From assembly GCF_009711095.1 (NCBI RefSeq), contig NZ_WMJZ01000012.1, forward strand, positions 1 to 64,000: DNA of 64,000 bases, read 5' to 3'. Both the position numbers and the translations under genes were made by a program. Shown here piece by piece: positions 58,774 to 61,504 of the stretch (positions are counted from its first letter, which is position 1; each line of letters opens with the position of its first letter). The DNA comes from Intestinirhabdus alba (GTDB taxonomy: Bacteria > Pseudomonadota > Gammaproteobacteria > Enterobacterales > Enterobacteriaceae). Below the pieces are notes generated by a model. That model saw only the letters and a list, made by a program, of their open reading frames with translations. It made no database searches and was not told the DNA's origin.

Positions 58774-60228
58774 TTAGTACAGCCCCAATACCTTCCACCA
58801 TGCCAGGCCTATCGTCAAAAAGATGGCCTGGTTAACCAGGCTAATGATAAAGCCCGTCCGCCACCAGACGCCGGTAGGCACGTAGCCGGCACCGAACAGA
58901 ATAGGGCCGCGCGCGTGGGTGTACTGTGTCAGAGAACAATACAGGCTGCTGGTGAACGCCAGCATTAACGCCATTGGCGCGGCGGGAATATGCAGCTGCA
59001 GGCCGACGCCCAGGAACACCGCGTACAGGGCGGCGATTTGCGCGTTGCCGCTGGCGAAAAAGTAGTGGGTATAAAAATAGGCGGCGTTGAGCAACAGCAG
59101 AACGATAATCCAGCTTGTGCCGTGCATGGTGCTGCCGATGCTGTCACCGATGACGTTGCCAAACCAGGAGGTAAAGCCCAGTTTTTTCAGCTGGTTCGCC
59201 ATCATCAGCAGGGCGGCAAACCAAATCAGGGTATCCCAGGCTCCTTTCTCGCTTTTAACATCTTCCCAGTTGAGAACGCCGCTCAGCAGTAGAATCGACA
59301 GGCCGACGAAAGACGCGGTCGTCGCATCGACGCCAAGCGCATCGCCAAAAATCCACAGCACCAGCAGAACGCCGACGGTCAGCAGCATCAGCCACTCGCC
59401 GCGCGTCATCTTGCCCATCCCGGCCAGCTCTTTTCGCGCCAGAGCCGGGGCGTCCGGCGTTCGTTTGATTGTCGGGCGGGTCAGCCAGTATACCAGCACC
59501 GGGACGAGCAGCAGTGACACCAGGCAGGGGAGCAGGGCGGCCAGAAACCAGCTGCCCCAGTTGAGTGTGACCCCGGCGTTAGCCGCCAGCTTCACCGCCA
59601 GCAGGTTGCCGGTATAGCCTGTCATAAAGAGCGCCGCCGTCACGTCATTGACGTTACCGATGCAGGTAATCAGAAATGTACCGATTTTGCTGCGCGACTC
59701 ATCTTCCGGACGTGAGTCAAAGCTACGCGCCAGCGAGTCGGCAATCGGATAGATGACGCCGCCGCAGCGTGCGGTATTGCTGGGCATGGCGGGGGAGAGG
59801 ATCAGGTCGGCGAACGCCAGACCATAGGCCAGACCCAGCGTGCGTTTACCTAACAGGCGGATCATCTGTAGCGCAATACGCCGCCCAAGACCGGTTTTGA
59901 TAAAACCGCGGGCAATCATAAACGCCACGACGATCAGCCAAATCAACGAGCTATTGAGTTCGCTCAGCGCGGTGGTGATGGCCCCGGTGGCGGTTTTGTC
60001 TCCTGCCGCATACGTCAGAGCAAAAACGGTGATGCCTATCAGCCCCACTGCGCCGATAGGCAATACTTTCGCGACAATCGACGCGATGGTTGCAACAAAA
60101 ATAATCGCTGAATGCCAGGCGGGTACGCTTAGCCCCGACGGCGGGGCTAAGTGCCACAAACCAACGGCAATCAAAACAATAACAATTAGCGGGAGCCATT
60201 TGACGCCTGGTGTTTTTTTCTCTGCCAC
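58774..60228 (-). CDS. DASS/CitT-family dicarboxylate transporter
   Basis: 484 residues with about 12 membrane segments from a GTG start with an AGGCGAG site. Family motifs: LSPAMPSNTARCGGVIYP (near 150) and a C-terminal TQYTHARGPILFGAGY, the two substrate/sodium sites. It is a paralogue of TtdT in this window but clearly different in sequence; likely substrates are citrate, tartrate, malate or similar dicarboxylates. No enzyme gene stands beside it, so the substrate cannot be told. E. coli K-12 has yqhG-yqhH around here instead. Confidence 0.88.
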   Translation of the reverse strand: MAEKKTPGVKWLPLIVIVLIAVGLWHLAPPSGLSVPAWHSAIIFVATIASIVAKVLPIGAVGLIGITVFALTYAAGDKTATGAITTALSELNSSLIWLIVVAFMIARGFIKTGLGRRIALQMIRLLGKRTLGLAYGLAFADLILSPAMPSNTARCGGVIYPIADSLARSFDSRPEDESRSKIGTFLITCIGNVNDVTAALFMTGYTGNLLAVKLAANAGVTLNWGSWFLAALLPCLVSLLLVPVLVYWLTRPTIKRTPDAPALARKELAGMGKMTRGEWLMLLTVGVLLVLWIFGDALGVDATTASFVGLSILLLSGVLNWEDVKSEKGAWDTLIWFAALLMMANQLKKLGFTSWFGNVIGDSIGSTMHGTSWIIVLLLLNAAYFYTHYFFASGNAQIAALYAVFLGVGLQLHIPAAPMALMLAFTSSLYCSLTQYTHARGPILFGAGYVPTGVWWRTGFIISLVNQAIFLTIGLAWWKVLGLY

Positions 60229-60377
60229 AGTTACTCGCCTATAAAGTTATGAACATATTTTTAACTAATTATTTGCATGAATAATCATACATTTATAGGG
60301 GTTAATGCTGCGCTCATGGACACGGGAAATATACATTTAATTAGTTACTTAATTTTTCTTAAAGTTTCCAGATAGCC

Positions 60378-60563
60378 AAGCTCAACCGGAAAGTTGGGCT
60401 GAGACTGATGACAAACCCCAGGCCGAACTCGTTCGGCCATAATCACCACAAAAATAAACAAGGAAAATCAATTCATTGATTTTCGGCTGCTCACCACAAA
60501 GAGGGAAAAACCACGTTTTTCCCTCTTTACCATCAACCTGAGCCCAACCGGAAAGTGGGGCTG
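60378..60563. repeat. Cluster of five hairpins with flanking direct repeats
   Basis: Five stems in 186 bp: 60379-60400 (AGCTCAAC/GTTGGGCT), 60421-60438 (GGCCGAAC/GTTCGGCC), 60463-60484 (10-bp GAAAATCAAT and complement), 60498-60528 (13-bp perfect AAAGAGGGAAAAA and complement) and 60541-60562 (AGCCCAAC/GTGGGGCT). First and last are direct repeats matching at 22 of 24 bases. TCACCACAAA occurs twice (about 60443 and 60491). It lies at the 3' end of dkgA on the minus strand. No gene is seen in 60229-60571. Confidence 0.75.
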
Positions 60564-60571
60564 AAGGAGAA

Positions 60572-61399
60572 TCAGCCGCCAAACCGATCCGGATCGGGGC
60601 CGAGGCGCATCCCCCGATCGAGCTTAGCGATTTCGCCCAGCTCCTCTTTATCAAGGCGAAAATCCCAGACGTTAAAGTTCTCTTCGATGCGCGACGGGGT
60701 GACGGATTTGGGGATTGTGACCAGGCCGCAGTCCAGGTGCCAGCGAATAACGACCTGCGCCGGGGATTTACCGTATTTATCCGCCAGCTGGCGAATGATT
60801 TTCTGGTCGAACACACCTTCTCCGCCCTGGGCCAGCGGGCTCCAGGATTCGGTCTGGATCTTGTGCGTCGCGTTCCAGGCGTGCAGCTGACGCTGCTGCA
60901 TCAGCGGGTGAAGCTCAATCTGGTTGATGGTCGGCATCACGCCGGTTTCATCAGCCAGGCGCTGGAGATGATCGATCTGGAAGTTGCACACCCCGATGCT
61001 CTTAATCAGCCCCGCTTGCTGCAGATCGATCATGCCCTGCCAGGCTTCGACATAGCGATCGCCAGCCGGGACGGGCCAGTGCATCAGATAAAGGTCAAGG
61101 TAATCGAGCTGCAGTTTTTCAAGACTCTCCAGCAGCGCTTCGCGCGGGCGCTTCTGGTCGTCGTTCCACAGCTTGGTGGTAACAAACAGCTCCTCCCTGG
61201 GAAGGCCCGCGCTTTTTAACGCCCTGCCGACCCCTTCCTCATTCTTATAGGCGGTTGCGGTATCAATAGAGCGGTAGCCCACCTCCAGCGCTTTATGAAC
61301 GGCGGCGGCGGCCTCTTCGTTGCTTGCCTTCCAGACGCCCAGCCCCAGCTGCGGCATCAGATTGCCGTCGGCAAGCTTGATGATGGTTGGATTCGTCAT
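60572..61399 (-). CDS. dkgA: 2,5-diketo-D-gluconate / methylglyoxal reductase A
   Basis: 275 residues from ATG 61399, as in E. coli DkgA (YqhE). Aldo-keto reductase barrel with the catalytic tetrad regions RSIDTATAYKNEEGVG (Asp/Tyr), TTKLWNDD (Lys) and LMHWPVP (His), and the NADPH-site IPKSVTPSRIEENFNVWDF. It reduces methylglyoxal and other aldehydes. It is co-transcribed with yqhD (105-bp gap) under YqhC. Confidence 0.95.
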   Translation of the reverse strand: MTNPTIIKLADGNLMPQLGLGVWKASNEEAAAAVHKALEVGYRSIDTATAYKNEEGVGRALKSAGLPREELFVTTKLWNDDQKRPREALLESLEKLQLDYLDLYLMHWPVPAGDRYVEAWQGMIDLQQAGLIKSIGVCNFQIDHLQRLADETGVMPTINQIELHPLMQQRQLHAWNATHKIQTESWSPLAQGGEGVFDQKIIRQLADKYGKSPAQVVIRWHLDCGLVTIPKSVTPSRIEENFNVWDFRLDKEELGEIAKLDRGMRLGPDPDRFGG

Positions 61400-61504
61400 C
61401 AGATTTTCCCCCTGGATGGATTTCACCGGAGCGGGCTCCGGCGAAGTGGTGTGAATTAAGTCTGGCCGAAATGGCTGAAAACGAAAGCGAGAGGTGAAAA
61501 AAGC

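Follow-up and report, generated by a model that had tools for sequence, protein, structure and literature searches.

Positions 60378-60563 of the window, a 64,000-nucleotide stretch of the Intestinirhabdus alba genome, hold one copy of a 142-bp repeat that is very likely a MITE, set between two copies of a target hairpin. In all probability it is a non-autonomous element of the YPAL/RU-2 kind that would be mobilised in trans by hairpin-targeting IS1182-family transposases.

A repeat unit between duplicated hairpins

The sequence-only reading described the block as an array of five hairpins. All the features that it listed are present in the sequence, but these are not five independent hairpins: the three inner ones belong to one repeated unit (60400-60541), whereas the two outer ones lie outside the repeat and vary between its copies. 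The features are as follows.

60400..60541, plus strand (the orientation used, TGAGACTGATGACAAA end first): very likely a MITE, 142 bp; boundary set from 30 genome copies
60400..60415, plus strand: left terminal inverted repeat, TGAGACTGATGACAAA; matches the IS1182 end AGATTGATGACAAACCCC and the YPAL end
60526..60541, minus strand: right terminal inverted repeat, reverse complement TCAGGTTGATGGTAAA; other copies mostly TCAGGTTGATGACAAA
60380..60399, no strand: left copy of the duplicated target hairpin, GCTCAACCGGAAAGTTGGGC; 20 nt, 18/20 identical to the right copy
60542..60561, no strand: right copy of the duplicated target hairpin, GCCCAACCGGAAAGTGGGGC; 20 nt, directly 3' of dkgA
60421..60438, no strand: internal hairpin 1, perfect 8-bp stem (60421-60428/60431-60438)
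60463..60484, no strand: internal hairpin 2, perfect 10-bp stem (60463-60472/60475-60484); nearly invariant across genera
60498..60528, no strand: internal hairpin 3, perfect 14-bp stem (60498-60511/60515-60528); compensatory changes across genera
60572..61426, minus strand: aldo/keto reductase gene (PF00248), presumably dkgA-like (a name taken from the earlier reading); the element lies just past its 3' end
58774..60228, minus strand: sodium:sulfate symporter family gene (PF00939), 5' end towards the element

The stem that had been given as 13 bp is indeed perfect but measures 14 bp, and the 3' arm of this hairpin extends into the right end of the element. The 10-bp and 8-bp stems were correctly described, as was the repeated TCACCACAAA, found at 60443 and 60491, and the two near-identical outer hairpins correspond to a 24-nt direct repeat of 92% identity (60379-60402 and 60541-60564). 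The element contains no transposase gene, its sole ORF being one chance frame that enters from dkgA.

That the block might have no second copy had been named as grounds for dismissing it, yet the genome has about 30 occurrences of its middle part. A search found 30 places at 87-100% identity, 29 near-complete and one truncated at the 3' end, besides two more diverged ones at 77-78%, a single short piece of 82% identity and some short self-matches. When the copies were compared together with their flanks, the common sequence ran from TGAGACTGATGACAAA to TTTGTCATCAACCTGA, and the sequence outside was specific to each place and mostly formed a stem-loop on both sides. A length of 142 bp (below about 300 bp), the lack of a transposase gene, 16-nt imperfect terminal inverted repeats and 30 copies are the features of a MITE, so that among the three suggestions made from the sequence alone the MITE-like element with flanking repeats was the right one. 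At one locus (L009; contig C89, about 70800-70983) two left ends lie 42 bp apart with N between them, which reflects a nested copy, a tandem copy or an assembly fault. Two other copies (L004 on C150 and L022 on C105) have the left flank in common and not the right; this may be an assembly join, as C150 ends beside the element.

A target site duplication, likewise a mark of a MITE, is present too: the flank was duplicated in 25 of the 29 near-complete copies, compared to 12 of 812 mismatched pairs made from the left flank of one copy and the right flank of another (duplication called at a local alignment score of at least 20). The duplications span 15-23 bp and each takes in an entire stem-loop, which in most cases resembles a terminator. 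Flanks of 22 nt folded at an MFE of -6 kcal/mol or lower in 29/29 cases on the right and 26/29 on the left, against a background of 140/1160 for 22-mers and 289/1160 for mononucleotide shuffles. Duplication was absent from four copies: L004 lies at a contig end and has an unrelated right flank, L009 has N and the second left end in its flank, and L024 and L027 have a hairpin on one side alone or none that is clear. By a crude ORF call, the 3' end of a gene faces the element in 26 of the 29 copies, 12 of these being convergent pairs, and no copy (0/29) lies inside an ORF. Among the 25 duplicated targets, an outward A-tract precedes the left copy at 16, an outward T-tract follows the right copy at 8, and 19 have one or both. 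The target in the window has neither tract, and a consensus scan detected no terminator there; it may be a decayed or weak terminator.

Matches to the element were found in 8 of 60 relatives (the own genome included), where the right half is common and the left half variable, and in 12 records of the plasmid collection (Klebsiella, Proteus and Providencia); there were no copies among 5426 E. coli genomes. Several genera have the right half (window 60443-60541, with two hairpins) in conserved form, with compensatory changes in one stem, but not the left half. The end motif AGACTGMTGACAAA occurred 77 times in 12 of the 60 genomes, compared to a single occurrence of the reversed control motif, and in the surroundings of its matches there are several further miniature elements, 68-312 bp long, which have the same ends but unrelated interiors. 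Such elements were seen at L069, L070, L074 and L085-L102 (relatives G003 and G022), and some appear to be nested (L084). For MITE-sized end pairs outside the own genome, duplication was present in 25 of 40, against 19 of 1560 mismatched pairs, and absent from the other 15; 22 of the 25 duplications are hairpins at -4 kcal/mol or lower, and 3 are weak hairpins.

IS1182-family elements with the same ends

A scan of viral contigs for AGACTGMTGACAAACC returned 43 stretches. In one of them (L137) the ends lie 1574 bp apart between duplicated hairpin flanks. The transposase between them is broken into two open pieces, and each piece was assigned to the IS1182 family (NF033551, E 1.8e-59 and 9.7e-64). 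Among the 43 stretches, IS1182 was the only gene-bearing element whose ends border its own transposase. Another stretch (L146), with 1534 bp between YPAL-like ends, was rejected as an autonomous mover because its gene is of the IS110 family. Here, at L146:370-1904, an IS110-family element sits within a YPAL-like element, between duplicated CACTCACTGAGTGAGT.

A search with one of the L137 pieces matched 1370 plasmid records, 21 genome loci, 3 viral records and, once, E. coli. The genome loci belong to Xenorhabdus, Photorhabdus, Serratia, Yersinia, Providencia, Gallibacterium, Edaphovirga and Cricetibacter, and IS1182-family ISs of about 1.5-1.6 kb with MITE-like ends are present in records of Xenorhabdus, Photorhabdus, Serratia, Providencia, Klebsiella and Vibrio. 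Ten IS regions were taken among the plasmid, viral, genome and E. coli matches, and five intact transposases that were tested scored 487-514 bits against a cut-off of 270. The 33 IS loci (L178-L211 without L209) yielded 26 end pairs whose distance fits an IS (1.4-1.7 kb), 7 of them from one species, X. szentirmaii. The flank was duplicated in 19 of the 26 and not in the other 7, compared to 7 of 650 mismatched pairs; every one of the 19 duplications is a hairpin, with a length of 15-33 bp.

The element and the ISs also agree in the asymmetry of their ends. One end reads AGACTGATGACAAACCCC in the MITE and AGATTGATGACAAACCCC in the IS, the opposite end AGGTTGATGACAAAG in the MITE and AGACTGCTGACAAAG in the IS; in both, ...TGACAAACCCC or a close variant stands at one end and ...TGACAAAG at the other, and the stretch in common is about 16-18 bp long. 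Ends in common with an IS1182 element are what is expected of an IS1182-derived MITE. Together with the target habit, they suggest that an IS1182 transposase is the likely mover.

As a distant control, ten IS1182 elements were taken from lower plasmid ranks, and five of them had duplicated a whole hairpin. These five (two from Enterococcus and one each from Aminobacter, Rhizobium and Alkalihalophilus) have 41% identity or more to the query, whereas the five at 32% identity or less showed no whole-hairpin duplication, although in two of them (L229 and L230) the ends were not recognisable and a duplication would have escaped notice; one control row (L232) is an annotated frame whose length is no multiple of three. 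A tree of 18 transposases placed all 13 members of the hairpin clade in one group, at 98/98. Two members of this clade (L203 and L210) have no duplication; by eye, the terminator-like hairpins on their two sides differ from each other, a pattern that would follow from recombination between two IS copies. A Salmonella plasmid (L202) carries two IS1182 copies in head-to-tail orientation.

An intact IS1182 of this kind is missing from the own genome, where a C-terminal fragment lacking these ends is all that was found; the copies of the element there may therefore be fixed today. The NCBIfam IS1182 model exceeded its cut-off in 2 of 60 relatives, in neither case adjoining the ends. An IS30-type mover was rejected: the only HTH_38 match above cut-off in the own genome is an IS21-like transposase, and the ends were unmatched. 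The lack of an intact IS1182, along with the shortness of a 16-nt end match, would fit a transposase of unrelated origin that moves the MITE and has arrived at the same ends and target habit by convergence. We regard this as improbable, since IS1182 agrees with the element both in the asymmetry of its end pair and in duplicating whole hairpins, the reversed end motif matched once against 77 times, and the other kilobase-sized candidate from the viral stretches, where IS1182 alone borders its own transposase, proved to be IS110 in a YPAL-like element.

Interior structure, empty sites and a model of insertion

On each strand, the single-strand fold of 60372-60572 was better than those of all 200 dinucleotide shuffles (z scores of -4.9 and -6.7). 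In an alignment of 56 distinct right halves, drawn from several genera, pairing held for 1098 of 1117 cells, and 43 cells, mostly in two neighbouring pairs, had changed on both sides, against 2-7 when partners were slid by 1-3; this count leans towards structure, as the interior structure was derived from the same alignment. One of the covarying pairs occurs as AU, GC and CG, and its neighbour as GC and AU. The folding on both strands and the compensatory changes in internal hairpin 3 are what a structured RNA (an sRNA or a 3'-UTR element) that happens to be repeated would show, and a small structured RNA was among the suggestions of the sequence-only reading. Although the interior hairpin covaries, Rfam returned no family at threshold, its 4 matches (E 3.8-9.5) all being far below gathering scores. 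Copies lie at unrelated loci, nearly all with their own duplicated target hairpin, and MITEs with the same ends differ widely in interior, so that a primarily RNA identity is very improbable. Within a mobile element, the interior may serve for protection from read-through, as a transposase-related feature or through RNA action.

Empty sites were sought for the ISs by joining the flanks of four plasmid copies with one hairpin and searching for them in plasmids. All four joins matched full length at 100% in other plasmids, with one hairpin present; records with any match, and those at 99% or more, numbered 945 and 886 for L211, 986 and 743 for L206, 725 and 399 for L205, and 55 and 11 for L204. 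What insertion adds is therefore the IS together with one more hairpin. For the MITE, the joined flanks of the copy L015, which adjoins what we take to be an argS-like 3' end with a convergent gene opposite, were searched in 295 family genomes, 168 of which matched. Twenty loci were fetched; of these, 13 were examined because their match crosses the join, and in every one the gap, 44-103 nt long, contains a predicted hairpin but lacks the element. The hairpins differ between genera, making this an empty orthologous terminator region and not a base-exact site. The window copy yielded no exact empty site, as its joined flanks matched relatives on the dkgA side only; beyond dkgA, the 11 relatives examined had other hairpins or none, and no element. 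The alternative in which the flanking hairpins belong to a compound repeat, or stem from a local duplication, instead of being a duplicated target site draws on the two near-identical hairpins in the window, but the hairpins agree within a locus and differ between loci, and the single-hairpin joins intact in plasmids already contradict it for the related ISs, making it the least credible of the alternatives and the compound repeat of the earlier reading a mistaken one.

In the mechanism that we propose for IS1182-driven mobilisation, the transposase would bind ends of the form AG-Pu-PyTG-N-TGACAAA and join them to a stem-loop at its two feet; in many cases this stem-loop would be a transcription terminator. 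Filling of the gap on each side would then copy the whole stem-loop to both sides. The left hairpin copy would retain the A-tract and the right copy the T-tract, and the terminator structure should accordingly survive insertion in both directions. More broadly, we put at about even the chances that this IS1182 clade reads DNA structure and not sequence, joining at terminator feet so that the hairpin is copied and termination kept on both strands; that such a terminator-sparing style let gene-less elements (YPAL, this MITE and several with unrelated interiors) colonise the terminators of Enterobacterales; and that the stem-loop interior is under selection.

If correct, the model proposes a mover for YPAL/RU-2, described from Yersinia in 2006. 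The elements provide natural cases of whole-stem-loop duplication, which in Wan et al. 2017 appears only as a possible, drawn pathway (PMC5678879). A terminator regenerated on both sides would explain the harmless build-up of such elements between genes, and structure-guided target choice by a DDE transposase becomes directly testable with the plasmid-borne elements.

Comparison with known systems

YPAL/RU-2 elements of Yersinia were reportedly described by De Gregorio et al. in 2006. Their ends, ttcagactgctgacaaacccc ... ctttgtcaataacctca in Table 1b of PMC2759123, are by eye like those of our element (as are those of a YPAL-type copy, L122), and the size class is the same. The interior, in YPAL about 168 bp, appears by eye unrelated to that of the 142-bp element, which is therefore filed beside YPAL and not as YPAL. 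Both have targets at or beside dyad symmetry and duplications of variable length, given as 3-26 bp for YPAL/RU-2 in the text of PMC2229807; in our element the 15-23 bp duplicated are hairpins. The YPAL-type copy L122 also duplicates a whole hairpin. The searchable texts on YPAL/RU-2 name no mover.

The IS1182-family ISs with CAGACTG-N-TGACAAA-like ends (ISEfa7-like and ISBspe1-like copies and elements of Klebsiella, Providencia, Vibrio and Xenorhabdus) have the same or similar ends as the MITE and the same whole-hairpin duplication, and differ in carrying a transposase gene within about 1.5-1.6 kb. IS1630 of Mycoplasma fermentans, an IS30-family element, is said to target and duplicate inverted repeats; its transposase family is a different one, and the IS30 kind needed was not found in the own genome.

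IS1182 elements are already known to target hairpins. IS1272 is reported to take the place of the stem-loop, which is not duplicated (PMC5678879). For TnSha1 a partial deletion of the hairpin is described, in many cases at terminators, and Siguier 2015 is cited for palindrome-targeting IS1182 members (PMC4923244). Like our element, IS1272 and TnSha1 are described there as using stem-loops, often terminators, without sequence specificity (PMC5678879, PMC4923244). The hairpin deletion reported for IS1272 is not seen here; we found duplication instead, with one hairpin in the empty sites of the related ISs and two in the filled ones. This is the outcome of pathway b, drawn as a possibility by Wan et al. 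2017, in which the whole stem-loop would be duplicated if joining took place at its 5' foot (PMC5678879). A link between IS1182 and YPAL-type MITEs, or whole-hairpin duplication by this clade, was not found in the literature searched, to which subscription papers and ISfinder are external; ISfinder may list such duplications. MITEs related to ISMac2 in Methanosarcina acetivorans have been assigned to an IS1182 element, and the duplications listed for them are of 4 or 0 bp (PMC3852290), not hairpins as in our element.

The sequence-only reading held that the block is neither ERIC nor a single REP. The support for this is indirect and comes from differences in end sequences and insertion style: ERIC/IRU (the 127-bp ERIC sequence) has TA termini and a TA target duplication, whereas our element has TGAG...CTGA and hairpin duplications of 15-23 bp, and it is by these features, not by consensus alignment, that the two are set apart. 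REP/BIME, which consist of palindromic units of 20-40 bp and have a REP-associated transposase, differ from the element in size and organisation.
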